A DNA stretch of 64,000 nucleotides, from the NCBI RefSeq assembly GCF_034377285.1, contig NZ_CP139715.1, forward strand, positions 5,002,501 to 5,066,500. The letters run 5' to 3'. Source of the stretch: Thalassobaculum sp. OXR-137. Lineage in GTDB: Bacteria > Pseudomonadota > Alphaproteobacteria > Thalassobaculales > Thalassobaculaceae. Shown one piece after another: positions 8,981-64,000 of this stretch. How positions within the stretch are numbered: position 1 is the stretch's first letter; the number at the start of each line of letters is the position of its first letter. Made by a program: the position numbers and the translations under genes. The notes beneath the pieces are model-generated. The model saw only the letters and a list, made by a program, of their open reading frames with translations. It was not told the origin of the DNA and searched no databases.

Positions 8981-9661
8981 CTACCAGGGGAACGCGGTGC
9001 CGTCGTAATTGCGGAAGCAGCCATTGTCTTCCGGCGTCAGGTTGGCGATCACATTGCGCATACCGGCGGCGCTGTCCACCGCGGTCACCGGCGCGCTCGG
9101 CCCGCCCATGTCGGTGCGCACATGGCCCGGATGCAGCAGCGCGACGATCGCGCCCTGATCCGCCAGTTCCTTCGCCAGGCAGCTCGCCGCCATGTTCAGC
9201 GCGGTCTTGGACGAGCGATACACGGCGTTGCCGCCGCCGTTGCGCTCGATCGAGGCCATCAGCGAACTGGTGAAGGCCATCACCTTCATCGACGAGTTGA
9301 GAACGTTGTCCTTGAACGCCCACGCCACCCGGATCGGCGCGAAGACGTTGGTCTCCATGGTCTTGGCCCAGGCGTCGTAGTCGATGTCGCCGATCGACGG
9401 CACCTTGTTGATGTTGATGCCCGCATTGTTGAACAGCACGTCGATCTGCTGGCCCTTGAGGCTGGTGACCAGCGCATCGAGGGTCGAGATGTCGTCCACG
9501 TCCAGCGGATAGACGTCTATGTCGCCCTCGACCTCGTTGAGCTCGTCGGCCGCGCCCGGATTGCGGCAGGTCGCGATGACCCGCCAGCCGTCGGCCGCAT
9601 ACTGCCGGGCAAGCTCGAGGCCGATGCCTCGATTGGCGCCGGTGATCAGGACTGTTGGCAT
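8981..9661 (-). CDS. Short-chain dehydrogenase/reductase
   Basis: 226 residues with the classical SDR features: TGANRGIG nucleotide-binding loop at 7-14, NNAG in the middle, and the YRSSK catalytic pair, with a serine-containing FTSSLM strand before it. It should be an NAD(P)H-dependent cytoplasmic oxidoreductase. The end LTPEDNGCFRNYDGTAFPW is typical of the CsgA/sniffer-like SDR subgroup. GAGAGGGAGAC precedes the ATG. It lies between DUF1989 and the HCCA isomerase gene with short gaps, so the block 8318-11419 may be one transcript. Substrate unknown. Confidence 0.85.
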   Translation of the reverse strand: MPTVLITGANRGIGLELARQYAADGWRVIATCRNPGAADELNEVEGDIDVYPLDVDDISTLDALVTSLKGQQIDVLFNNAGININKVPSIGDIDYDAWAKTMETNVFAPIRVAWAFKDNVLNSSMKVMAFTSSLMASIERNGGGNAVYRSSKTALNMAASCLAKELADQGAIVALLHPGHVRTDMGGPSAPVTAVDSAAGMRNVIANLTPEDNGCFRNYDGTAFPW

Positions 9662-9685
9662 GGTGTCTCCCTCTCGCGTTCAGGC

Positions 9686-10300
9686 TCAGAATGCGGCGCC
9701 GTCGGTGACGACGAAATGCGCATCCTGCGGCGTGCAGTTGATCCCGTTGATCGGGATGATGTCCTGGGGGCAGGAAGAAAAGGCGACGACACAGTCGACC
9801 AGCGCCTTCAGCATCACATAGCTTCCCGGCTCGCTGACCGGCGGCTTCCAGTCGATCTTTCCTTCCAGATCCCAGGGGATGTTCATGAACAGGTTCAGCG
9901 GGCTCGGGGTCTCGGCCGCCTCCAGGCCGATCTCCTTCAGCGCGTTGTGCAGGTTGTCCTGGCAACTGTCGTGGAACCCTTCCACGCCCAGCCCCTCGTA
10001 GCGCCAGCGGTCGCAGGCGGCGATGAAAGTGTCGTGGACCTCGCCGGAGGTATCTTCCACCAGCATGAGGATGGGGCGGCGGTGATTGGTGACCAGGGTG
10101 TCGCCGATCTTCGGCGTCAGCCGGTTCATATAGGCCCGGCTGTGCTCCATCGACATGAACTCTGTCATGTCGGTGTCGACGAAGGCCCAGGTATCGACCA
10201 CCTGGGAGCCGGGGGTGTTGATCACTTTGACGGACTGACCGGCCGCCAGCCGACAGGCCTTGCCCTTGCGGGCGGGAATGGTCGTCTTTCCGTCGCTCAT
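9686..10300 (-). CDS. DUF1989 / urea carboxylase-associated family protein
   Basis: 204 residues matching the DUF1989 family, which is often encoded beside urea carboxylase: an N-terminal IPARKGKACRLAAGQSVKVINTPGSQ-type beta strand, HSRAYMNR, a conserved HDSCQDNL cysteine/histidine motif and the NIPWDLEGKIDW block. A cupin-like metal-binding fold is accepted for this family, but the reaction has not been settled as far as I know. No urea carboxylase or allophanate hydrolase lies in this window, so it is a stand-alone copy. Neighbours are the SDR gene (24-base gap) and RidA. Confidence 0.8.
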   Translation of the reverse strand: MSDGKTTIPARKGKACRLAAGQSVKVINTPGSQVVDTWAFVDTDMTEFMSMEHSRAYMNRLTPKIGDTLVTNHRRPILMLVEDTSGEVHDTFIAACDRWRYEGLGVEGFHDSCQDNLHNALKEIGLEAAETPSPLNLFMNIPWDLEGKIDWKPPVSEPGSYVMLKALVDCVVAFSSCPQDIIPINGINCTPQDAHFVVTDGAAF

Positions 10301-10392
10301 GTCGTCAGCCCCCTGGTTGGACGGCGAAGCCTAACAAGCCGTGGGGGGCCGAGGCTAGACGGGTTGGCTGCCGCCGCCGGCCGGCGCGCCGA

Positions 10393-10785
10393 TCAGCGCC
10401 GGTTGTCCTCAAGTTTCGCCGTCACCTCGACCTCTACCCGCATGTAGGGCTCGGCGAGCTCGGCCAGGATCGTCGTGTTCGCCGGGCGGGCCGCATCGCA
10501 GTGGCGCTTGATGATCGGCTTGATGCGCTCGAACTCCTCGCGGCTTGCCACGAAGATCCGCACCCGGATCATGTGGTCCATGCGCGACCCGGCCTGGGTC
10601 AGCGCCCGCTCGATGATTCGGAAGCAGTTTTCGCACTGGCTCTCCACATCGGCGGGGAACTCCAGCGTGTCCGGATCGAATCCGGTGGTGCCGGACACGA
10701 AGACATAGGGCGGATCGACCACAGCCCGGGCATAGCCGGCCATCTCCTCGAACGGGGCGCCGGAATAGATGCGGGTGCCGATCAT
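10393..10785 (-). CDS. RidA/YjgF family enamine/imine deaminase
   Basis: 130 residues with RidA-type features: an N-terminal PFEEMAGYARAVVDPPYVFVSG strand region and a C-terminal MRVEVEVTAKL strand. RidA proteins are small trimers that hydrolyse reactive enamine/imine intermediates. The usual active-site arginine appears in the PYMRVEVE part, consistent with activity. A GGGAGAC ribosome-binding site precedes the ATG. It lies between tag (16 bases) and DUF1989 (92 bases), all on the minus strand. The name ridA itself is not assigned since many paralogues exist. Confidence 0.85.
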   Translation of the reverse strand: MIGTRIYSGAPFEEMAGYARAVVDPPYVFVSGTTGFDPDTLEFPADVESQCENCFRIIERALTQAGSRMDHMIRVRIFVASREEFERIKPIIKRHCDAARPANTTILAELAEPYMRVEVEVTAKLEDNRR

Positions 10786-10801
10786 GGATTTGTCTCCCGT
10801 C

Positions 10802-11419
10802 TCACAGGGTGGGGCGCTCGAACTCCGCCCGGTCCTGCTCGCAGGCCGCCCGGAAGGCGCAGGTGTCGAGATGGTCGTTCACGATGCCGACCGACTGCAT
10901 GAAGGCGTACATGGTGGTCGGTCCGACGAAGCTCCAACCGCGCTTCTTCAGTGCCTTGGACAAGGCCTTCGACGCGTCCGACATCGTGATGGTGTTCAGG
11001 GTCTCCCGGTCGAAGCGGTTCGGTCGGTCCACCGGCTTGGGCTCGAAGCTCCAGATGAAGGCGGCCAGCGATCCGGCCTCCTCCACCAGTTCCACCGCCC
11101 GCTGGGCGTTGTTGATGGTGGAGCGGATCTTGCCCTGGTGGCGGACGATTCCCGCGTCGGCCAGCAACCGCTCCACATCCGCCTCGCCGAACGTGGCGAC
11201 CTTGTGGAAGTCGAACCCGGCGAAGCCGGCGCGGAACGCCTCGCGCTTGCGCAGGATGGTCAGCCAGGACAGGCCGGACTGGAACCCCTCCAGGCAGATC
11301 TTCTCGAACAGCCGAATATCGTCGCGTACCGGCCGGCCCCACTCGTCGTCGTGATAGGCGATGTAATCGGCATGCTCGCCCGGCCAGGTGCAGCGGGGCG
11401 TGGTGTCGTCGAGTGCCAT
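10802..11419 (-). CDS. tag: DNA-3-methyladenine glycosylase I
   Basis: 205 residues from the ATG at 11419; a further in-frame start at 11458 would add 13 residues without family likeness. Tag family signatures run along the protein: RCTWPGEHADYIAYHDDEWGRP with the zinc-ligand cysteine, FEKICLEGFQSGLSWLTILRKREAFR with the catalytic-pocket glutamate, and a C-terminal HLDTCAFR zinc-ligand motif. It excises 3-methyladenine from alkylated DNA. It is the first gene of the minus-strand tag-ridA-DUF1989-SDR block and divergent from the HIT gene at 11500. Confidence 0.93.
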   Translation of the reverse strand: MALDDTTPRCTWPGEHADYIAYHDDEWGRPVRDDIRLFEKICLEGFQSGLSWLTILRKREAFRAGFAGFDFHKVATFGEADVERLLADAGIVRHQGKIRSTINNAQRAVELVEEAGSLAAFIWSFEPKPVDRPNRFDRETLNTITMSDASKALSKALKKRGWSFVGPTTMYAFMQSVGIVNDHLDTCAFRAACEQDRAEFERPTL

Positions 11420-49887: not shown

Positions 49888-50847
49888 TTAAAGCTCAGAG
49901 AGATAGCGCGCGTTGTCGGGCGCAAGCTCGCGCACCCGCGCGCGCGACAGCTCGGCAAGATCTGCCTCCCCGGACAACTCGTGGATCTTCGCCATGGCGA
50001 AGTGCCCGTCGATGCTCTGGGGATCGATCTCCACCGACCGCAGGGCGGCCTTGCGGGCGTCGTCCAGGTTGCCGTTCTGCGCCTTCAGCCAGGCGAGCCC
50101 GCCCAGCAGGGCCGGATCGTCCGGATTGCCGGCCAGCGCCCGCTCGAACTCGGCCTGCGCTTCCTGGACCTTGCCCATCTGGCCCAGGCAGTTCGCCAGT
50201 TTCCCGCGGAAGGCGGTCACCTGCGGGGCCCGTTCGATCGCTGCGCGGAAACACTCCTCGGCCTGATCCAGTTCGCCCAGATCCACGAAGGCCTCGCCGA
50301 GCTGATACAGGCCGTTGACGTTGTCGGGATTGGCTTCGACCGCCTTGACCAGAAACTGGACGGCATCGACGCCTTCGCCGAGTTCCCGTCCCACGATACC
50401 GCGCCAGACCAGGATCTCCGACGCGTTCGGATCGATCTCTATCGCCCGATCGAGGCTTGCCGCCGCGCCCGCCAGATTGTCCCGGCCGCGTTGGGTCAGG
50501 GCCAAGTTGAAATGCGCTTCCAGATACTCGGGATCGAGAGACAGAGCCTTGCCGAACTGGTTTTCGGCCGCATCGAGATCGCCGAGCTTCAGTTCGGCCG
50601 TCCCGATATGGTTCGGATAGGCCGCGTTGGCGGGGTCGATTTCCGCGGCGACCTGCAGCAACCCCTTCGCGCCCTCGAACTCGCCGCATTGCAGGCAGAG
50701 CAGCCCGGCGAGATGCAGAGCGCGTTCGTGTTGCGGATCGGCGTTGAGAATTTCGACATAGAGGTCCCGGGCCTGCTCGAACTCGCCCATCTCATGGTGG
50801 CGGACTGCGGCGACGAGTTTCGGCTGCAGGTCATCGACAACGGTCAT
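49888..50847 (-). CDS. Tetratricopeptide repeat protein near the flagellin genes
   Basis: 319 residues made almost wholly of TPR units (HEMGEFEQARDLYVEILNADPQHERALHLAGLL; LGDLDAAENQFGKALSLDPEYLEAHFNLAL; LGELDQAEECFRAAIERAPQ and others, about eight). No signal peptide, membrane segment or enzyme domain is visible. It resembles the N-terminal TPR part of the three TPR-glycosyltransferases downstream, but without their C-terminal domain. It may act as a chaperone or glycosylation adaptor. It is alone between the flgN-like and FlaG-like genes. Confidence 0.75.
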   Translation of the reverse strand: MTVVDDLQPKLVAAVRHHEMGEFEQARDLYVEILNADPQHERALHLAGLLCLQCGEFEGAKGLLQVAAEIDPANAAYPNHIGTAELKLGDLDAAENQFGKALSLDPEYLEAHFNLALTQRGRDNLAGAAASLDRAIEIDPNASEILVWRGIVGRELGEGVDAVQFLVKAVEANPDNVNGLYQLGEAFVDLGELDQAEECFRAAIERAPQVTAFRGKLANCLGQMGKVQEAQAEFERALAGNPDDPALLGGLAWLKAQNGNLDDARKAALRSVEIDPQSIDGHFAMAKIHELSGEADLAELSRARVRELAPDNARYLSEL

Positions 50848-54192: not shown

Positions 54193-54570
54193 TTATCCGG
54201 CCATCGACTGGGGCTCGGGTTTCAGACCCGCCATGATCTGGCGGTTGATCTCGATCAGATCGTCCAAGGGAGCGGTGTCGTCCGACATCACCAGCTTGGT
54301 TTCCTTCATGACCCAGAGCGCCAGGCTGGCGATCCCCCCCTTGAGCTGACGCGGCAGGGAGTTGTCCGGATCGTTCACGTCGGCCAGGAAGACGCCCCAG
54401 ACCTTTTCGTTCTGCAGGATCCAGTTGTACTTCTCCTGCAGGGTCGCCCGACCGTCCCGGGCTTTCATAAGACCGCCGGTGACCTGCGCCAGGAGCCGAT
54501 ACTCCAGGTCGCGGCCGTTCTGAACGGCGGTGGCCCCTTGGGCGCTCTTGTATGCACCGTATCCCCGCAT
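54193..54570 (-). CDS. flaF: Flagellin synthesis regulator FlaF (copy 1)
   Basis: 125 residues matching FlaF: GRDLEYRLLAQVTGGLMKA, KYNWILQNEKVWGVFLADVNDPDNSLPRQLKGGIASLALWVMKETKLVMSDDTAPLDDLIEINRQIMAGL. FlaF is needed for flagellin synthesis or secretion in alphaproteobacteria, with FlbT as antagonist. GGAGGAC precedes the ATG. It lies between a flagellin gene and flgK. A second, diverged FlaF is encoded at 59630-60082. Confidence 0.9.
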   Translation of the reverse strand: MRGYGAYKSAQGATAVQNGRDLEYRLLAQVTGGLMKARDGRATLQEKYNWILQNEKVWGVFLADVNDPDNSLPRQLKGGIASLALWVMKETKLVMSDDTAPLDDLIEINRQIMAGLKPEPQSMAG

Positions 54571-54656: not shown

Positions 54657-55484
54657 TTACTGGAACAGGCCGAGCAGGATCTGCGGCGACTGGTTCGCGA
54701 TGCCGAGAACCTGGACGCCGAGCTGCTGGCGGACCTGCAGAGCGGTCAGTCGGGCGCTTTCGCGGGCCATGTCGGCATCGACGATGTTGCCGAGACCTTC
54801 TTCGGTCGCGTCCGTGATCTGATCCAGGAAGGAGGTCTGCAGATCGAGGGCGCGGGCTTCCGCACCGAGCGAGCCGAGCGCCGCGTTCACCACCGATTCC
54901 AGGTTGGAGTACTGGTTCGCGATGACGCCCTGCGCCGCGTTCGCGGTGCCGAGCCCGACGGCCGCCAGGGACAGGACCTGGGTCCGCAGGTTCGCGTTGG
55001 TCAGGGTCAGCGTACCGCCGGCCAGGTTCGACAGGGTGTTGATGCTGGGCGCAGCACCCGCCGTGTCGAGCAGGTTGACGCCGTTGAACACCGCGTTGTC
55101 GATGAAGTTGGCTGCCTGCGAGAGCAGTTCGGTGAAGTCGTTGGTCAGGATCTGACGCTGGGTCGTGGTGATGCCTTCGTTCGACAGCTCCGTCAGCTTC
55201 TGCCGCACCGTCTGCAGCAGGTCCGAGATGCTGGTGGCACCGGCGATCGCCACGTTGGCGATACCCTTGGAGTTGTTCAGGCCCTGGCTGATCGCGCCAA
55301 GCGCCTTGATGTCGCCGCGGATGCCCTGGGCAATCGCGAAGTTGGAGGCATCGTCGATCGCTCCGGTGACCTTCAGGCCGGTGGAGACGCGATTCTGCGT
55401 GGTTGCGAGGAGATTGTTGGTCCGCTCGAGGTTACGAAGCGCGACCAGGGCCTCAGGGTTCGTCAGGATCGAGTTGCTAGCCAT
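54657..55484 (-). CDS. fliC: Flagellin (copy 1)
   Basis: 275 residues. The N-terminal D0/D1 (NSILTNPEALVALRNLERTNNLLATTQNRVSTGLKVTGAIDDASNFAIAQGIRGD) and C-terminal D1/D0 (AQGVIANQYSNLESVVNAALGSLGAEARALDLQTSFLDQITDATEEGLGNIVDADMARESARLTALQVRQQLGVQVLGIANQSPQ) are kept, with a short middle domain. It is the filament subunit. The two downstream flagellins (62546, 63673) are close relatives but differ at the C terminus (QSPQILLGLFQ here versus QRPQSLLGLFR). A sigma-54 element lies upstream. Confidence 0.97.
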   Translation of the reverse strand: MASNSILTNPEALVALRNLERTNNLLATTQNRVSTGLKVTGAIDDASNFAIAQGIRGDIKALGAISQGLNNSKGIANVAIAGATSISDLLQTVRQKLTELSNEGITTTQRQILTNDFTELLSQAANFIDNAVFNGVNLLDTAGAAPSINTLSNLAGGTLTLTNANLRTQVLSLAAVGLGTANAAQGVIANQYSNLESVVNAALGSLGAEARALDLQTSFLDQITDATEEGLGNIVDADMARESARLTALQVRQQLGVQVLGIANQSPQILLGLFQ

Positions 55485-55582: not shown

Positions 55583-55598
55583 CGCAAGGGACGGGCCA
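55583..55598 (-). promoter_or_regulatory. Sigma-54 promoter for flagellin 1
   Basis: Minus strand TGGCCCG-TCCC-TTGCG, GG-N10-GC spacing and intact TTGC. It lies about 100 bases upstream of the flagellin ATG, in the 260-base gap after the glycosyltransferase gene. The rest of the gap is AT-rich with no gene. Confidence 0.7.
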
Positions 55599-55744: not shown

Positions 55745-57652
55745 TCAGCGGCGCGCCCGGAGCAGCTCGACGGCCCGGTCGATGGCACGCGAGATGTTCA
55801 TGACTTCGTCGCCCCGCAGGGTCGGGGTCATGTTCGAGAAGAACAAGTCACGGTCGTCGAGGATCCCGTAGAAGGAGGCTCCCAACCGGATCGTCGGGCA
55901 GCCGACGGCCGGCGCCATGGCGCAGACGCTGGTGGCGGTGGAGACCACCCCGTCCAGGGCCGAGATCAGCGCCGCCACGCCATCCAGGTCCTCCATCTGA
56001 TCGAGATCGTCCGGCCGCCACAGCGCGATACCGTGGTCCCGGCGCAGGGCGTCGAGCTCGGCGCCGCTCTCGTCATATTGGAGGCTGACGAAGCGATAGC
56101 CCGGCATCCGCAGGATCGGGAGCATCTGCGGCAGCTCGGCATAGTGGGCGGCGCGCACCCCGCTGCGGAGCATGCTGCGCCAGCACAGGCCGATCACTGG
56201 CCCCTCGCCCTCCAGCCCGGCAAGCCGTTCCCTCCAGCCGGCGACCCTTGCCGGATCGGCGGTCAGATATCCCCGGCACTCCGATGGACGTGACCGGTCG
56301 CGCAGATAACGGCCGGGAAGATCGCCGGCATGGAGATGGGCGGTCAGCCCCAGGGCGGGGACGATCTTCCTGTAATCGTAGACCGCGCGCAGGCCCTCGG
56401 CCCGCACCTGCCGGTCGATCAGCCTCAAGCCGGGGAAGGAGCGGGCAAAAAGAGGGCGAAGGCGCGGGTCGACCTCCACCACGGCGGTGGGACACTCGGC
56501 GAGCAGATCCGGCAGGCAGGAGAGAAACAGCAATTCGTCCCCGATGCCCTGCTCCGCCGCGACCAGCAAACCCTCTTTCGGCAGATCCGGCCCGGCGACC
56601 CGGGGGGGCAGACCGACGGTCCGGTGGAATCGCGGGCCAGCGGCACGGGACGCCTCGAGATCCCAGCCGCGCCCCAGGTCGCCGACCACCTTCTCGACCT
56701 GGGACCAGAGATAGGAGAGCTCACTGTCCCCCGGATATGCCATCAAGCCGGTGTGCGCCACGCGGCCGGCCAGATCGAACCGGGCCAGAAGGATCGCCGC
56801 CTGCCCGATGGCCCAGGTGGAGCCGAGATCGTGCGGTGCCGCCAGCAATCCCCGACGTCCGGAGGCGAAAGAGGCGGCAAAATCGCCCTCCCCCCGATCG
56901 GCCATCGCCTGATGCTCCCAGGCTTTCGGGGACAGGGGAGACAGCAGGACGGCCCGGCGCGCCCACCGGCGGGCCGAGGCCATGCCGACCGGCCGGTCCG
57001 CCTCCTCGCTCAGCAGGAAGATAGCGTCGGCACTGTCTGGGGCGGCGATGGCGGCCCGCCGGGCGGCATCCCAGGCTTCCCGGTTGCGTCGAAGCCGCCT
57101 GGCCGCCAGCACCGCCGTGACCGACAGGCCCGTGACCAGGGGCAGCAGCCGGGACGCCCGCAACGCCGCATCCGCCGCCATGGTCCAGCGCTCGGTCTGG
57201 CCGGCGATCGTGGCAAGCCGGACCTGGGCAATGGGCTGCGAGGGGTCGGAGATCGCCGCCCACCAGGCAAAGGGAACGGCGGCGGCGATGCGGCCCGACC
57301 GCGCCAGGTGGTCGGCCATGGCGAAGGCGGCCCGGCGCGGGCCGGCGGGATCGGCCAGCAGGGCGCGGCGCAGGAACGCCACCGACCGGGTGCCGGCCCC
57401 GATCTCCGCCAGCGCCTGCCCGGCAAGTTCCAGGACCTGGGGCTGCTGCGGGTCGATGCATAGGGCGCGTCCGCACCACTTGGCCTGGGACCGTGCATCC
57501 CCGCCTATCGCCAGGGTGACGACGCGGAAATCGTCAGGGGCGGCACAGATCGCCGCCTGGAACCAGGCCTGCGCATCGGCGGCACGCTGGGCGGCACGTT
57601 CGGCAAGGCCGCGGCGCAGCGCCTGCTGCGCGATCGGATCCCGGGGCGCCAT
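55745..57652 (-). CDS. TPR-glycosyltransferase-fold protein (copy 1), candidate flagellin glycosyltransferase
   Basis: 635 residues: an N-terminal helical TPR-like region (about 1-330) and a C-terminal domain with EQGIGDE (367-373), GLCWRSMLRSG (488-498) and DLDGVAALISALDGVVSTATSVC (555-577). The last two motifs fit the GT41/GT9 glycosyltransferase fold (nucleotide-sugar binding). The order TPR plus glycosyltransferase is that of the known flagellin glycosyltransferase FlmG of Caulobacter. It overlaps the start of copy 2 by one base and ends an operon with flbT and flaF2. Sugar and target are inferred. Confidence 0.7.
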   Translation of the reverse strand: MAPRDPIAQQALRRGLAERAAQRAADAQAWFQAAICAAPDDFRVVTLAIGGDARSQAKWCGRALCIDPQQPQVLELAGQALAEIGAGTRSVAFLRRALLADPAGPRRAAFAMADHLARSGRIAAAVPFAWWAAISDPSQPIAQVRLATIAGQTERWTMAADAALRASRLLPLVTGLSVTAVLAARRLRRNREAWDAARRAAIAAPDSADAIFLLSEEADRPVGMASARRWARRAVLLSPLSPKAWEHQAMADRGEGDFAASFASGRRGLLAAPHDLGSTWAIGQAAILLARFDLAGRVAHTGLMAYPGDSELSYLWSQVEKVVGDLGRGWDLEASRAAGPRFHRTVGLPPRVAGPDLPKEGLLVAAEQGIGDELLFLSCLPDLLAECPTAVVEVDPRLRPLFARSFPGLRLIDRQVRAEGLRAVYDYRKIVPALGLTAHLHAGDLPGRYLRDRSRPSECRGYLTADPARVAGWRERLAGLEGEGPVIGLCWRSMLRSGVRAAHYAELPQMLPILRMPGYRFVSLQYDESGAELDALRRDHGIALWRPDDLDQMEDLDGVAALISALDGVVSTATSVCAMAPAVGCPTIRLGASFYGILDDRDLFFSNMTPTLRGDEVMNISRAIDRAVELLRARR

Positions 57653-59616
57653 CAGACGGCGCGTCTCGGCGCCCGGGGCGCATGCTTCCTCAGCATCGCC
57701 GCCGCCCTCCGGCCCGCTTCGGCGCCGTTGAAAGCCTCGTCGCGATCGAAGACCGGATAAACATTGGGAAAGAAGAACTCACGATCGTTCGATATCCGCA
57801 TGAACCCCTGTGCCAACCGGATCGTCGGCGTTCCCACCGCCCCGGCAAAGGCACAATTCGCCGTGCGCGCGGCGACCACCACGTCCAGAGCCTGCATCAG
57901 CGCCGCCAGATCGTCGAGCCCGTCCCAGATATCCAGGTCCGGCGGCGTCACGAGATCGACCCCGGTGACGGCCCTCACCCTTGCGACTTCGTCGTCGGTG
58001 TCGCCGGCCATCAGGTTGACGAACCGGCAATCCGGCGTAGCGAAGACGGGCAATACATCCTCGATCGAACAATGGCTGCGAGCGCGCAGGCGGGTCAGAT
58101 GGACCGTCCTCCAGACCACCCCAACCTTGGTTCCGCCGCCCAGGGAGGATAGCCACCGGCGCCAATGGGTCACGCGGTCCGGATCCGTCCGCAGATAACC
58201 GACCCGCGCCAACGACCGGTCTCGCCCCCTGTTCAGTATATAAGGAAGACTGCCGGACATGATGTGGTGGCGCAGGCCGAAACGCTTGGTCAGGGGCGCA
58301 TAGTCGACCGTTCCGCCCAACCCGTCGCTGGGAGCCGATTGCCGGGGAACGACCGTGGCAGACCGGAAGGTCCGCGCTATGAGAGACGTCAGACGGGAAT
58401 CGACCTCGATCACCACCGGCTGGCGGATCTCCTCCCAGATCTCGGCCAAACAGGAGAGGAAGGTAACCTCGTCTCCGACCCCCTGCTCCGACGCCACCAG
58501 CAACGGACCGGTCTCGGTCCCAGGCCCTCGCCAGGGCGGCGGCAGGTTGAGGCGCGGCCGATGCGCCGCGCGGCACAACCGCGCCTCGTGCAGCCTCCAG
58601 GCGGTGCGCGCATCGCCGATCCGGAACTCGACCTCTGCCAGTGTGTACAGGACCTCGGCATCGCCGGGCCGGACACACAGGGCGTGGCCGCAGATCCTGC
58701 GGCACACCGCCGTCCGATTTTGACCGATCTCGGCCGCCGCCAGATTATGCAGGCCCATGGGCGATGCGGGATCCAACAGCAGAGCCCGGCGCGAGGCCAT
58801 CAAGGCGTCTTCGTTCCGGCCGTCGCGATAGGTCTCGGCACAGAGATTGATCCAGCTCCGGGGATCGAGCGGCCGCAACCGGGTCGCGGCCCGTGCCCAG
58901 GCGATGTCCCGCTCGGTCGCGTGCCCCGGATCGTGGGTCAACGCCAATGAGCCGTAGAATTCGTGGGTTTCCGGCACCAGAACGATGGCGGCCATGACGA
59001 CCCGCCGCGCCTCGGCGAGCCGGCCCAGCGCGATCTGCGCCCGCGCCAGGGCCTGGGCCACTTCGCCGTTCCCCGGATGCCGCGCCCAGGCCGCGTCCAG
59101 AATCGGAATGGCCTCCGCAGGGGCCTCGGCGCGAGCCAGAAGGATCCGCTGGCGAAGATCGGCGTCGGCGGATCGGGGGGAAATGAGGAGGGCGCACCGG
59201 TTCACCCGCAGGCCGCGCACGGCCTCGCCGACATCACCGAGAACCGCCGCGAGATTGATCCACGCTTCGGCCCTCTGCGGGGCGACGAGGATGGAGCGCA
59301 GGAAAGCCCTCTGTGCCGCCGCTTGGTCCTGCAATGCCCGGTCGATGGCGCCCAGATGGTTCCAGGCGGGGCCATGCAGCAGCCGATGCCTCAGCGAGGC
59401 CAAGACATGGAGACGCCCCGCCTCCGGGGCGCCGAGTTGGAACAACGCGGTGCCGTACAGATCGAGGGCGTCCGGATGATCGGGGAGGTCGCGGAGAATA
59501 CGGTCGTAAGCCTGCGCGGCCGCCCGCACGTGTCCGTCCGAATGAAGGCGGACCGCCCGATGGAAGAGGGTCGTCAGTGTCTCGAGGCGATCTGCCGTCA
59601 GCGAAGCCCCGGTCAT
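57652..59616 (-). CDS. TPR-glycosyltransferase-fold protein (copy 2), candidate flagellin glycosyltransferase
   Basis: 654 residues with the same plan as copy 1: TPR-like helices (about 15-330: AAAQAYDRILRDLPDHPDALDLYGTALFQLG; ALMASRRALLLDPASPMGLHNLAA), then a C-terminal domain with EQGVGDE (377-383), VGVVWRTVHLTRLRARSHC (498-516) and DDLAALMQALDVVVAARTANCAF (568-590). It starts 13 bases after the flaF2 stop. The middle and C terminus differ strongly from copies 1 and 3, so the three may use different targets. Confidence 0.7.
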   Translation of the reverse strand: MTGASLTADRLETLTTLFHRAVRLHSDGHVRAAAQAYDRILRDLPDHPDALDLYGTALFQLGAPEAGRLHVLASLRHRLLHGPAWNHLGAIDRALQDQAAAQRAFLRSILVAPQRAEAWINLAAVLGDVGEAVRGLRVNRCALLISPRSADADLRQRILLARAEAPAEAIPILDAAWARHPGNGEVAQALARAQIALGRLAEARRVVMAAIVLVPETHEFYGSLALTHDPGHATERDIAWARAATRLRPLDPRSWINLCAETYRDGRNEDALMASRRALLLDPASPMGLHNLAAAEIGQNRTAVCRRICGHALCVRPGDAEVLYTLAEVEFRIGDARTAWRLHEARLCRAAHRPRLNLPPPWRGPGTETGPLLVASEQGVGDEVTFLSCLAEIWEEIRQPVVIEVDSRLTSLIARTFRSATVVPRQSAPSDGLGGTVDYAPLTKRFGLRHHIMSGSLPYILNRGRDRSLARVGYLRTDPDRVTHWRRWLSSLGGGTKVGVVWRTVHLTRLRARSHCSIEDVLPVFATPDCRFVNLMAGDTDDEVARVRAVTGVDLVTPPDLDIWDGLDDLAALMQALDVVVAARTANCAFAGAVGTPTIRLAQGFMRISNDREFFFPNVYPVFDRDEAFNGAEAGRRAAAMLRKHAPRAPRRAV

Positions 59617-59629
59617 CGACCGGGTCCGA

Positions 59630-60082
59630 TCAGAAGGAGTCGAGAGACGCCGAAAGGCCGGGAGTGGGAGCGGCGGACGGGGCAGACCCCGACTTCTCCT
59701 CCTGCTCCGAACGCGACGGATTAAGACCGCGCATGATCGCCTTATTCACCGAGATCAGCGCCTCGATATCGCCCTCGCCGGCCGACACCAGCCCGGTCTC
59801 GCGGGAAACCCAGATCCCGAGGCTGACGATCGCCGCGCGCAGCTCCCGGGGCAGCAGATTGCCCTCGGTACCGACATCCTCGACGAAGGTGTCCCAGACC
59901 TGATTGTTCCAGTTCAGCGCGTCCATGACCTCGGCCATGACCGTCGGCTTGTTGCGGGCGTCCTCGATCTGGGCCTGCGCCTTCATCAAAGCAGACGTTA
60001 CCTGCCCCAGCAGGCGGTATTCGACGTCGCGCGGTGCGGCAGTGCTCTTGATCGCTCGGTTGTAGGCATCGTAGCTGGACAT
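59630..60082 (-). CDS. flaF: FlaF-family flagellin regulator (copy 2)
   Basis: 150 residues from ATG at 60082 (six further upstream codons in the frame are unlikely). FlaF features: YDAYNRAIKSTAAPRDVEYRLLGQVTSALMKAQ, NWNNQVWDTFVEDVGTEGNLLPRELRAAIVSLGIWVSRETGLVSAGEGDIEALISVNKAIMRGL. The C-terminal 25 residues are Ser/Ala/Pro-rich and are absent from copy 1. It follows flbT by 18 bases and precedes glycosyltransferase copy 2. The two FlaF proteins may each serve a different flagellin. Confidence 0.87.
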   Translation of the reverse strand: MSSYDAYNRAIKSTAAPRDVEYRLLGQVTSALMKAQAQIEDARNKPTVMAEVMDALNWNNQVWDTFVEDVGTEGNLLPRELRAAIVSLGIWVSRETGLVSAGEGDIEALISVNKAIMRGLNPSRSEQEEKSGSAPSAAPTPGLSASLDSF

Positions 60083-60100
60083 ACGGACTTCACCGTCCAA

Positions 60101-60538
60101 TCAAGGCGTTTCCAGTGCGATACTCGGCCGTTCGGTCGTCTCCCCACGCCCAAATGCCAGCACCTGTTCTTCATAAGCGATCAATGCTTTACAAGTCTTT
60201 AACGCTCTGTAGTAGCGGGCCGCGTCGGCGTCCTGAACGATGTGCAGCAGGGTCTTGCGCACTTCGTTGAACGTCGTCGCCTCCATGAAGTCCTCGATGA
60301 GCCGCATGAAGGTCGGGTAGTAGTCGTTCCGACCCGCCTCATCGAGATACATCAGCAGGATCGTGAAATAGATGCGCTTGGCCGGGGTGTCGGCCTCATG
60401 CTCCTGCATGATGTCCTTGCCCAGCAGAATCGTCGCCTCGTTCTGCAACACCAGGGACGCACCCTTGTTGCCGGCGACCATGACGGCGCCGTTGACGACG
60501 AACTTTTCCCCAGGCTTGATGTTGACCTTTAGCGGCAT
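60101..60538 (-). CDS. flbT: Flagellin mRNA regulator FlbT
   Basis: 145 residues matching FlbT (PLKVNIKPGEKFVVNGAVMVAGNKGASLVLQNEATILLGKDIMQEHEADTPAKRIYFTILLMYLDEA; YRALKTCKALIAYEEQVL). FlbT binds flagellin mRNA 5' regions and represses translation until the hook is complete in alphaproteobacteria. It heads the flbT-flaF2-TPR/GT-TPR/GT operon. Hairpins in the 5' region of flagellin 2 (63401-63435) could be targets. Confidence 0.93.
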   Translation of the reverse strand: MPLKVNIKPGEKFVVNGAVMVAGNKGASLVLQNEATILLGKDIMQEHEADTPAKRIYFTILLMYLDEAGRNDYYPTFMRLIEDFMEATTFNEVRKTLLHIVQDADAARYYRALKTCKALIAYEEQVLAFGRGETTERPSIALETP

Positions 60539-60711
60539 GCCTTAAATGTCGCATTCATTTACCGACTGTCAAGTTAAGCTGGGAATCGACGAATGAAACG
60601 CCCGTGCCCCTACGGCCCCCATGCGAATTTTCGCACAGGCCGCCGTCCGGCCGTTCCCGGCCACCGTGCCTGGGAATCGCGAATCAGGTCATTTCCGAAT
60701 CGCCCGGCTCG

Positions 60712-62478
60712 ATGAGCGCCCAGATAACCGCAGCGCTGGATGTCGCATTGCAGGCGCATCGCGCCGGCAGGCTCGATAAAGCGATCGCCATCTACGGTGC
60801 CGTCCTCGACATGGCCCCCGATCAGCCGACCGCCCGCCACCTGCGCGGGTTCGCGCTCCTGCAATCTGAGCAGGCAGAAGAGGCGCTCGGCGACCTGCGA
60901 CACGCGGTCAGAATCGCACCGGGCAACGCCAATGCCTGGATGCACCTGGCGATCTGCCTGGATCAGCTCGGCCAGCCTCCAGCGAATGCGGCCCGGCGCG
61001 CCCTGCTCCTCCTGCCACAGGCTCAGGAGGCGGTGGACGTCCTGGTGCGCAATGGCGGTGATGTGTCGGCGGTCCTGGATTGGCTGATGACCCTGGCACC
61101 GGGAGATCCGACGGCCTGGATCCGGGTCGGCCATACGTATACCCAGTCCGACCCGACCCGGGCGCTCCGGGCCCTGCGCCGTGCCCATTGCCTTTCGGCC
61201 CGAGATCCCTCCCTCCTGCTCGATCTCGCCGACGCGGAACGACGGGCTTCCCGTTCGGAAAAGTCGCTCGGTTACGCCAACCGGAGCCTGGCGTGTCGCC
61301 CCAATGATCCGCGCGGCCTGGCGGTGCGGGCCGCCGCCGAAGTGGAGTTGGACGCGGTCTCCGAGTCGCTCGCCGACTCCCGCCGTGCCGCCGTCCTCGC
61401 TCCAGGGCTTGCCCTGGCCTGGGCCAACCGGGCCGAGGCCCTGTATCGGCTCGCCGAGTATGCGGCCGCGGTGCGGAGCGGAGATCGCGCCCGGATCGCG
61501 GCCCCCTCCGATCCGGACATCTTGGCCAATCTGGCCGCCTACCGGCTCGCCACGGGGGATCTTGCCGTCGGATGGCCGCTGCTACGATACCGGCCGACTC
61601 GCCGGAGGGCGAAGGCCCCAGAACTGCCGCGCTGGCAGGGAGAAAGCGGCGCCCGTCTGCTGGTGCTGGCCGAGCAGGGATTGGGCGACGAGCTCCTGTT
61701 TTCCACGCTCTGGCACGATCTGGACCGCCGCGTCGAAGCCGGGTGCCTCGGCTCGGTGACCATCGAGGCCGATGCCAGGCTCATCCCCCTCTGCGCCAGA
61801 ACGCTACACAATGTCTCCTGGCGCCGACGGTTCCAGGACGACCCCGCCGGCGAGCCGGTCAGCCATTGGTGCCTGGCCGCCGACCTCATGGAGTATCTGC
61901 GTCCAACCGTGGCGGATTTCGGGGACTTCAGGCCCGGATTGTCTGTCGACGCGTCCAGATCAGCCGCCTGGAAGGCCTGGCTCGCGGAGACGGCACGCGG
62001 ACGTCCGACGATCGGCCTATGCTGGCGATCGAGTAGCCTGGGAGGACACCGCCGGCGGCACTATCCGCCCCTCGGGGAGTGCGCCCCGCTGCTTGACCTG
62101 AAGCACACTCTCTTCGTGATTCTGCAATACGACGACTGCCAGTCCGAGATCGACGGCGTCGAGGTCGCCACCGGCTCCGAGATCGTCATCCCCCCCGACC
62201 TGAATCGGCGCGACGACCAGGACGGGGTCGCGGCGCTGATAAGCGCGCTCGATATGGTGACGAGCGCTGACACGGCGGTTCTGGCGCTGACCGGGGCGCT
62301 CGGCAGACCGGCGGTGGCGTTTTCGCTGCATCCCGGGTGGGTCGGCCTGGGCCAGTCCCGGCACCCCTGGTTTCCGAGTGTCACGCGGGTCTATCGCCCA
62401 CCGCAAACACCCTGGCGCGAGACCATGGCGGCCGTCGCCCGCATCTTGGAAGCAAAGCTCGCCCGCCACGGCGCATGA
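60712..62478 (+). CDS. TPR-glycosyltransferase-fold protein (copy 3), candidate flagellin glycosyltransferase
   Basis: 588 residues from the ATG at 60712; an upstream ATG at 60604 adds 36 residues of repeat-like character, and no strong ribosome-binding site decides. TPR-like N-terminal region (about 1-290: LDVALQAHRAGRLDKAIAIYGAVLDMAPDQPTARHLRGFALL) and a C-terminal domain with EQGLGDE (321-327), IGLCWRSSSLGGHRRRHY (434-451) and DGVAALISALDMVTSADTAVLALTGALG (504-531). It is plus strand, divergent from flbT and convergent with flagellin 2. A strong terminator follows. Confidence 0.7.
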   Translation: MSAQITAALDVALQAHRAGRLDKAIAIYGAVLDMAPDQPTARHLRGFALLQSEQAEEALGDLRHAVRIAPGNANAWMHLAICLDQLGQPPANAARRALLLLPQAQEAVDVLVRNGGDVSAVLDWLMTLAPGDPTAWIRVGHTYTQSDPTRALRALRRAHCLSARDPSLLLDLADAERRASRSEKSLGYANRSLACRPNDPRGLAVRAAAEVELDAVSESLADSRRAAVLAPGLALAWANRAEALYRLAEYAAAVRSGDRARIAAPSDPDILANLAAYRLATGDLAVGWPLLRYRPTRRRAKAPELPRWQGESGARLLVLAEQGLGDELLFSTLWHDLDRRVEAGCLGSVTIEADARLIPLCARTLHNVSWRRRFQDDPAGEPVSHWCLAADLMEYLRPTVADFGDFRPGLSVDASRSAAWKAWLAETARGRPTIGLCWRSSSLGGHRRRHYPPLGECAPLLDLKHTLFVILQYDDCQSEIDGVEVATGSEIVIPPDLNRRDDQDGVAALISALDMVTSADTAVLALTGALGRPAVAFSLHPGWVGLGQSRHPWFPSVTRVYRPPQTPWRETMAAVARILEAKLARHGA

Positions 62479-62490
62479 CCGCGGCGACGC

Positions 62491-62527
62491 ATAAAAAAAG
62501 GGCCGGACTTTTCGTCCGGCCCTGATT
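62491..62527 (-). terminator. Bidirectional terminator between GT copy 3 and flagellin 2
   Basis: GGGCCGGAC and GTCCGGCCC form a perfect stem around TTTTC, flanked by AAAAAAA on one side and TGATTT on the other. On the minus strand, a run of seven T follows the stem, so it terminates flagellin 2 well and, less strongly, the glycosyltransferase gene. Confidence 0.9.
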
Positions 62528-62545: not shown

Positions 62546-63376
62546 TTAACGGAACAGGCCCAGCAGGGACTGCGGCCGCTGGTTGGCGATGCCGAGGGTC
62601 TGGATCGACAACTGCTGCTGCACCTGCAGAGACGTCAGAGCCGCGGATTCGCGCGCCAGGTCGGCGTCGACGATGTTGCCGAGACCTTCCTCCGTCGCAT
62701 CGGAGATTTCTTCGATGAAGGTGGTCTGCAGGTTCAGAGCGCGAACCTCGGCACCCAGCGAACCCAGAGCGGAGTTAACGACCGACTCAAGGTTGGAGAA
62801 CTGGTTGGCGATGACGCCCTGAGCGCTCGCGGCATCCGCCACCGAACCACCTGCCAGGGAAGCGATCTGCGTACGCAGGTCCTGAGCCGACAGGGTCAGC
62901 GTGCCGCCGTTCAGGTTCGACAGGGTGTTGATGTCGACCGACGCGCCCGCGGTATCGAGCAGGTTGACGCCGTTGAACACCGAGTTGTCGATGAAGTTGG
63001 CGGCCTGGGAGAGCAGCTGGTTGAAGTCGCTCGTCAGGATCTCGCGCTGAGCGGTGGTGATGCCTTCGTTCGACAGCTCGGTCAGCTTCTGCCGGACATC
63101 GGTCAGCAGGTTGGACACGCCGGTAGCGCCGGCGACGGCCACCTTGCCGATACCCTTCGCGTTGTTCAGGCCCTGCGTGACGGCGGCCAGACCCTTCAAT
63201 TCGCCGCGGATACCCTGGGCGATGGAGAAGTTGGAAGCGTCGTCGAGAGCGCCCGAAACCTTCAGGCCGGTCGACACGCGGTTCTGCACGGTGTCGAGGC
63301 TCCGGTTGACCGAATTCAGGGTCCGGAGGGCGGTGAAGGCGGAAGCGTTGGTATTGATGGAGTTCTGAACAGCCAT
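62546..63376 (-). CDS. fliC: Flagellin (copy 2)
   Basis: 276 residues with the flagellin D0/D1 ends (NSINTNASAFTALRTLNSVNRSLDTVQNRVSTGLKVSGALDDASNFSIAQGIRGE; FSNLESVVNSALGSLGAEVRALNLQTTFIEEISDATEEGLGNIVDADLARESAALTSLQVQQQLSIQTLGIANQRPQ). CGAGGAGG precedes the ATG. No sigma-54 element with proper spacing was seen upstream, unlike copy 1. Two hairpins lie in the 5' untranslated region. Confidence 0.97.
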   Translation of the reverse strand: MAVQNSINTNASAFTALRTLNSVNRSLDTVQNRVSTGLKVSGALDDASNFSIAQGIRGELKGLAAVTQGLNNAKGIGKVAVAGATGVSNLLTDVRQKLTELSNEGITTAQREILTSDFNQLLSQAANFIDNSVFNGVNLLDTAGASVDINTLSNLNGGTLTLSAQDLRTQIASLAGGSVADAASAQGVIANQFSNLESVVNSALGSLGAEVRALNLQTTFIEEISDATEEGLGNIVDADLARESAALTSLQVQQQLSIQTLGIANQRPQSLLGLFR

Positions 63377-63672: not shown

Positions 63673-64000
63673 TTATCCGAACAGGCCCAGCAGGGTCTGC
63701 GGACGCTGGTTGGCAATGCCGAGCGTCTGGATCGACAGCTGCTGCTGCACCTGCTTCGAGGTCAGGCGGGCCGACTCGCGGGCCAGATCGGCGTCCACGA
63801 TGTTGCCCAGGCCTTCTTCGGTGGCATCCGAAATCTGCTCCAGGAAGGAGGTCTGCAGCTCGAGAGCCCGAACCTCCGCGCCGAGCGAACCGAGAGCGGC
63901 GTTAACCACCGACTCCAGGTTGGCGTACTGGTTGGCGATCACGCCCTGGGCGTTGGTGGCCGAGGTCACCGCACCCGCCGCCAGAGACTGGGTCAGCGTG
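63673..64000 (-). CDS. fliC: Flagellin (copy 3), 5' part beyond the window
   Basis: The C-terminal 109 residues of a third flagellin; its N terminus lies past the window end and no start codon should be read here (GTG in-frame at 63969 is internal). The D1/D0 end (QYANLESVVNAALGSLGAEVRALELQTSFLEQISDATEEGLGNIVDADLARESARLTSKQVQQQLSIQTLGIANQRPQ) is complete. It is nearest to copy 2. Three tandem flagellins suggest a composite filament. Confidence 0.95.
   Translation of the reverse strand, partial: TLTQSLAAGAVTSATNAQGVIANQYANLESVVNAALGSLGAEVRALELQTSFLEQISDATEEGLGNIVDADLARESARLTSKQVQQQLSIQTLGIANQRPQTLLGLFG

Follow-up and report, generated by a model that had tools for sequence, protein, structure and literature searches.

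Several FlmG-like glycosyltransferase genes in the flagellin cluster of Thalassobaculum sp. OXR-137

Three TPR-glycosyltransferase genes among flagellin genes

The genome of Thalassobaculum sp. OXR-137 (5.65 Mb, 3 contigs, 99.97% complete) contains a flagellin cluster in which three diverged genes encode proteins that join an N-terminal tetratricopeptide repeat (TPR) region to a C-terminal glycosyltransferase (GT) domain. We investigated this cluster in a window of 64,000 nt (C1:5002501-5066500, contig NZ_CP139715.1); the window denotes this whole stretch of DNA throughout. An original prediction, made from the letters of the window, had listed three open reading frames of 635, 654 and 588 residues, and all three are confirmed at their places. 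We refer to them as A (55745..57652, minus strand, 635 aa), B (57652..59616, minus strand, 654 aa) and C (60712..62478, plus strand, 588 aa, ATG at 60712). A and B are defined by their reading frames and predicted structural models, C by a Pfam TPR match, a GT profile and synteny.

Read along the plus strand, the gene order is flgL, flgK, flaF1, fla1, A, B, flaF2 and flbT (all on the minus strand), followed by C (plus strand) and by fla2 and fla3 (minus strand). The genes flbT (60101..60538; PF07378, E 8e-40; a flagellin translation regulator by homology), flaF2 (59630..60082; the second FlaF paralogue; PF07309, E 1.2e-27), B and A form a compact array with gaps of 18 bp and 13 bp and then a 1-nt overlap between the B stop and the A start, in agreement with the predicted operon of two copies after flbT and flaF2. 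A is separated by 260 bp from fla1 (54657..55484; FLA1, 275 aa; PF00669, E 5.1e-22; PF00700, E 4.8e-13), and 173 bp lie between flbT and C. The third copy had been described as divergent beside flagellin 2; C is actually divergent from flbT and convergent with fla2 (62546..63376; FLA2, 276 aa; PF00669, E 6.5e-22; PF00700, E 1.8e-12), from which it is separated by 67 bp with an inverted repeat at 62499-62523. The C-terminal part of FLA3 is encoded at 63673..64000, and this gene runs past the window end (L017 173-1003). The predicted number of three flagellins holds for the cluster, whose third flagellin gene extends across the right end of the window; the whole genome encodes six flagellins, three in the cluster and three elsewhere.

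An N-terminal TPR-like region is present in all three proteins, as had been proposed: Pfam detects it in B and C, and AlphaFold in A and B. The TPR region of A stays under the Pfam cut-off (17.2 bits vs 23.5, E 0.008), but the model clearly shows it as a TPR superhelix. Both AlphaFold models, of A (mean predicted local distance difference test score (pLDDT) 93.3, predicted TM-score (pTM) 0.84) and of B (mean pLDDT 93.1, pTM 0.83), show a helical repeat that leads into an alpha/beta domain of two lobes with the GT-B fold, which begins at about residue 340 in A. The GT domain of A (residues 353-635) superimposes on the GT9 structure 3tov (Z 16.6, root-mean-square deviation (rmsd) 3.7 over 263 residues); unlike GT9 heptosyltransferases, the proteins stay below the curated sequence cut-off, carry an added TPR domain and have a presumed protein acceptor. 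In a whole-chain Foldseek search with A, the top matches were SPINDLY (E 1.7e-15) and OGT (E 1.2e-12), at TM-scores of just 0.26-0.47, which indicates that the domain arrangement of A differs from that of OGT and SPINDLY. B matched human OGT chains with a Z of about 20-21 and an rmsd of 13-14, so that this match is carried by parts of the chain. The proteins resemble the GT41 enzymes OGT and SPINDLY in fusing a TPR superhelix to a GT-B domain, but differ from them in arrangement and in giving no Pfam GT41 match. The GT domain of C was placed by sequence, through a profile score of 322 bits and its tree position; the GT-type C-terminal domain of the original prediction is thus borne out by structure comparison for A and B and by sequence for C.

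No Pfam or NCBIfam model scored above its cut-off on these GT domains. At E 1, a set of 14 GT domains, those of A, B and C among them, matched three Pfam families, none of which was GT41; PF01075 (GT9) gave weak matches in 7 of the 14 (best E 0.0074), with C scoring 11 bits where the cut-off is 22. A search of PDB sequences with the GT-domain profile returned nothing better than E 0.88.

The three copies are strongly diverged from one another. In a full-length three-way alignment, A is 36% identical to B and 30% identical to C, and in a 46-sequence alignment the values are 29% and 28%. Of the motifs that had been ascribed to all three proteins, EQGxGDE is indeed common, whereas GLCWRS and DGVAALISALD are exact in A and C only; the equivalents in B are GVVWRT and LDDLAALMQALD. 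Six residues are invariant across the 46-protein alignment, which contains A, B and C: four belong to EQGxGDE (E, G, G and D), and the other two are an R and a W.

Relatives, sugar pathway and conservation

The resemblance to FlmG of Caulobacter holds for the TPR plus GT-B architecture and for the linkage to flagellin genes. In the FlmG report, the TPR part is described as binding flagellins and the GT part as modifying them in the cytoplasm, with a single FlmG modifying all six Caulobacter flagellins (PMC7591256). The proteins studied here are like C. crescentus FlmG (596 aa) in having an N-terminal TPR and a C-terminal GT-B domain and a pseudaminic acid pathway in the genome (PMC7591256). 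They are unlike it in number: C. crescentus has one FlmG for all six flagellins, and here three such genes stand in the flagellin cluster, plus the two genes D and P. Ten further proteins with the same GT domain, P and D among them, are encoded elsewhere in the genome. P is a TPR-GT gene directly after the pseudaminic acid synthase gene (L016 9533-11341). D is a TPR-GT gene between flgE and fliF (L017 5871-7481), 5.4 kb to the right of the window; among the nine genomes in which flgE and fliF are both covered, eight have it at this position; it is fragmented in M30B52 and absent in G033. We regard D as a candidate hook-protein glycosyltransferase and as the best candidate for the hook.

Pseudaminic acid genes lie elsewhere in the genome, as the original prediction had proposed to look for. 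PseI (494 bits, cut-off 340), PseG (155, cut-off 154) and PseC (449, cut-off 424) all exceeded their NCBIfam cut-offs. A Pse methylase (TIGR03587; L016 14837-15466; 275 bits, cut-off 112) is located among these genes, and the sugar may therefore be methylated. PseI, PseG and the methylase sit with P, and PseC lies elsewhere in the genome. A PseH-like protein remained below its cut-off (37 bits vs 93), and the cytidylyltransferase adjoining the Pse genes matches KdsB and weak GlmU models only. Judged by these profile matches, the genome holds most of a pseudaminic acid pathway (PseB not being among the searched genes). Within the family, PseI exceeded its cut-off in 19 of 21 genomes with FlbT compared to 5 of 15 without it (Fisher p=0.0008, relatedness ignored), and in 14 of 15 compared to 1 of 5 among the 20 best genomes (p=0.005, relatedness again ignored), which suggests that the pathway goes with flagella. 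Furthermore, a TPR-GT gene lies directly 3' of the synthase gene in all 13 family genomes inspected, out of 24 with PseI over the cut-off. At five loci of Kordiimonas relatives and metagenome-assembled genomes (MAGs; L066, L076, L077, L081, L086), one TPR-GT gene is placed between flbT and neuB, so that a single gene there stands in the positions of both C and P.

Maf proteins are flagellin nonulosonic acid transferases. PF01973, presumably the Maf domain and listed by the search tool as MptE-like, had no match in this genome; the control genomes with matches were archaea. Maf-1 and Maf-2 paralogues differ in their target serines and in their mode of flagellin binding, according to a report that cites Unay et al. 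2024 (PMC13317340). We found no title or abstract describing several FlmG-type enzymes at one flagellin cluster, with subscription literature mostly outside the search.

The cluster is conserved in layout. The slots flbT-flaF2-[A/B type]-fla1-flaF1-flgK recur in eight genera of the Thalassobaculaceae. Thalassobaculum and its neighboring genera carry C in divergent orientation to flbT, or, as in Nisaea and others, a GT gene of another type stands between flaF1 and flgK. Caulobacter hibisci and Phenylobacterium also have a TPR-GT gene that, like C, points away from flbT, there in an array of flbT, flaF and flagellin genes. The closest match to A with a species name is from Thalassobaculum litoreum (71% identity). 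In a tree of 97 GT domains (all trees were midpoint-rooted), A, B and C form separate lineages with a bootstrap of 100 each, and orthologues of A are found in five other genomes. B, joined by the only such gene of G021, is sister to A with a support of 99, and C branches elsewhere. The Caulobacterales genes that stand in for C. crescentus FlmG (from C. hibisci, Caulobacter sp. D5 and Phenylobacterium) group with P plus a few others. A FastTree of 156 domains united the A/B and C lineages and Nisaea genes in one group (support 0.91), with weak support for the deep order. Constrained trees were obtained by a fast search and compared by the approximately unbiased (AU) and Shimodaira-Hasegawa (SH) tests. 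A single clade of A, B and C was disfavored (AU 0.013, SH 0.057), strict monophyly of FlmG and P was rejected (AU 0.0038), and a grouping of D with the Caulobacterales genes was not rejected (AU 0.218, SH 0.555).

Purifying selection acts on all three genes. Pairwise Nei-Gojobori ratios of non-synonymous to synonymous divergence (dN/dS; proportion of synonymous differences, pS, 0.23-0.63) were 0.21-0.26 for A, 0.27 for B and 0.23-0.26 for C, similar to P (0.21-0.24), while FLA1 (0.04-0.08), FLA2 (0.13-0.14) and D (0.11-0.14) are under stronger constraint. Among 41 consensus columns derived from 110 other family domains, C and the C. hibisci gene in the FlmG position (itself one of the 110) each retain 38, compared to 32 in A, 31 in B, 32 in D and 31 in P. 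The loss of a DTxxxH-like motif, presumably a GT9 feature, was dropped as an argument, as the Caulobacter genes in the FlmG position are also without it.

Proposed role and alternative explanations

We view the locus as a genuine and conserved variant of FlmG-type flagellin glycosylation with several putative enzymes, which is unusual for their number and not for their kind. Because domain division, neighbors and sugar pathway correspond, FlmG is the best model here. On a modest balance of probability, and by analogy to it, we consider A, B and C cytoplasmic FlmG-class flagellin O-glycosyltransferases, of which A and B would add sites or sugars on the same flagellins. What we infer concerns catalysis, donor, acceptor, the order of events and the division of labor among the three. 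The N-terminal TPR superhelix would hold unsecreted flagellin, and the C-terminal GT-B domain would move a nucleotide-activated sugar, with CMP-pseudaminic acid as the most likely donor, onto Ser/Thr residues of the flagellin's short exposed middle segment; this glycosylation would precede FlaF-guided export. C, with its FlmG position and canonical motifs, would be the likeliest main transferase, alone or together with P. A and B would be a translationally coupled pair that arose long ago by duplication and whose C-terminal lobe has changed, and would most likely act on the same flagellins as C, at further sites or with further sugars, rather than on one flagellin each.

Several observations weigh against this proposal. 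Strict orthology of A/B with the Caulobacterales genes in the FlmG position was rejected (AU p=8.7e-5, SH 0.003), and a clade of C with these genes is doubtful (AU 0.021; SH 0.108, non-rejecting); after this topology test we dropped a simple orthology between FlmG and C. In close relatives, the TPR region is less conserved than the GT domain (64 vs 77% in A, 60 vs 69% in B, 56 vs 64% in C), while FLA1 and FLA2 are 91-98% identical in the same genomes. Such TPR divergence beside near-constant flagellins is odd for a dedicated flagellin-binding surface. A and B lack PW(Y/F)P as well as a W further along the chain, and C-lobe motifs are changed in the whole A/B clade. In GT-B enzymes the donor is bound in the C-terminal lobe, and since the positions lost by both A and B lie there, a different donor or an altered activity is possible. 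The same region also deviates in P and in the genes that adjoin neuB in Kordiimonas relatives, so that the motif loss is no proof of inactivity; the notion that A and B are dead enzymes is weakened for this reason. As for gene content, G037 (a 97% complete MAG) has A, B, C and D but no PseI match, and in G033, flbT and flaF2 are present while the stretch covered shows no such GT gene beside flbT. Nisaea-like genomes carry further A/B-type genes (L168, L170, L171, L221, L226, L229) away from any flagellar gene searched for, and four genomes without an FlbT match (G019, G020, G023 and G046; 70-90% complete) match the A/B/C profile at E 1e-75.

The original prediction had called one enzyme per flagellin an attractive hypothesis. 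Three GT genes accompany three cluster flagellins here and in four other genomes from two genera, and the strong divergence among A, B and C would fit such a pairing, which we nevertheless judge quite improbable on the following counts. Clusters were compared in the 21 family genomes with an FlbT match, considering cluster flagellins only; the OXR-137 genome has three more. Sixteen clusters are complete, including those of G001 (on two contigs) and G014 (whose contig starts 222 bp before the first flagellin and may hold more); the count excludes G033, where the cluster is rearranged, as well as G006, G021, G022 and G044, where it runs into contig ends. Three flagellins are present in 15 of the complete clusters and two in the remaining one, whereas GT genes, D excluded, number three in five clusters (one of them, M30B52, with broken frames), two in nine and one in two, so that 11 of the 16 have fewer GTs than flagellins. 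As the number of cluster GTs does not follow that of flagellins, three enzymes for three flagellins is unsupported. Individual GTs have also been lost while flagellins stay. In T. litoreum, B is cut to 141 aa (L160 11909-12334; matching B residues 1-153 at 55%), a TPR-only remnant whose stop still overlaps the A start (TGATG); the BAL199 cluster is without A; and N. denitrificans retains a GT remnant between flaF2 and fla1 (L173 14148-14555) with three stops (2 TGA, 1 TAG). Both T. litoreum and the BAL199 cluster keep FLA1-type and FLA2/3-type flagellins. In the flagellin tree, FLA1 of the sampled genera group together (support 83), apart from FLA2/3, and in the midpoint-rooted trees this split looks older than that of A and B, which falls within the Thalassobaculum part of the family. 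Moreover, the single Caulobacter FlmG is reported to modify all six flagellins of that organism (PMC7591256). The exposed segments of FLA1-3 are alike and have TLSNLxGGTLTL in common, which together with the GT numbers favors several enzymes acting on shared flagellins.

A and B, and perhaps not C, could alternatively be non-enzymatic TPR scaffolds or chaperones that act with FlbT and FlaF to set when flagellin is translated or exported. Their coupling to flbT-flaF2, the C-lobe motifs changed throughout their clade and the T. litoreum B remnant, which keeps its overlap with A, all speak for this. We consider it unlikely, as a pure scaffold predicts the reverse of the observed better conservation of GT over TPR, and as A and B keep the six invariant family residues and are under purifying selection. 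Other exported flagellar proteins, such as hook, hook-associated or FlaG-like proteins, would be improbable targets: the many paralogues and the position of D between flgE and fliF speak for the idea, but A, B and C stand among flagellin, flaF and flbT genes and not beside hook genes, and the hook target once suggested for some of them suits D better. Least credible, and very improbable in our view, is a non-flagellar target with a chance placement of the genes. The ten further GT-domain proteins and the A/B-type genes of Nisaea-like genomes away from flagellar genes are in line with it; against it, the same slots are occupied in eight genera, and two 1.5-Mb genomes assigned to the same genus (G034 and G035) that lack FlbT and PseI also lack any A/B/C-profile match at E 1e-75.

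Extending the FlmG-class reading, we tentatively suggest, at clearly less than even probability, that Thalassobaculaceae build a composite flagellar glycan by a team of FlmG-class enzymes: P, one to three cluster GTs (A/B type plus C or another) and D at the hook gene, with different TPR modules directing different GT modules on one flagellin, either to distinct sites or one after another. If so, with a fast-evolving GT set gained and lost piecemeal over near-constant flagellins, it would be the sugar coat that varies at the surface and not the flagellin itself. A single TPR-GT serves all flagellins in Caulobacter, the one case studied, and the diverged copies described here constitute a natural series on how acceptor specificity is determined by TPR modules in cytoplasmic O-glycosylation. 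The natural losses of B in T. litoreum and of A in the BAL199 cluster provide ready comparisons. The family also cautions against taking an agreement of copy numbers in one genome as enzyme-substrate pairing.

Additional genes and sequence features

Scans for sigma-70, terminator and sigma-54 signals gave none above chance; one exact sigma-54-like pattern match is located at window positions 55584-55598, about 100 bp upstream of fla1, and such matches occur window-wide at chance frequency. The gene absences in G034 and G035 are as reduced symbionts might show. A Nitrospirillum reading frame (L044, L048, L054), some 2,845 codons long, contains five GT domains of this family, at loci with none of the flagellar genes searched for. 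A convergent TPR-GT pair (L020 7795-9333 / 9339-10910) lies beside hflK, apbC/mrp and fumarase genes and recurs as a pair in T. litoreum (L175). Between flgN and flgL, the window encodes a TPR-only protein of 319 aa without a GT domain (49888-50847), whose relatives occupy the corresponding position in other family genomes.

The three flagellin genes outside the cluster are found at L002, L004 and L006, and at L026 (the same place as L002) a FlaF-like gene adjoins the flagellin gene. Two FlaF paralogues, flaF1 after fla1 (54193..54570; PF07309, E 2.5e-27) and flaF2 after flbT, recur across the family; if one-to-one partners of the flagellins are sought, these chaperones would be stronger candidates than the glycosyltransferases.

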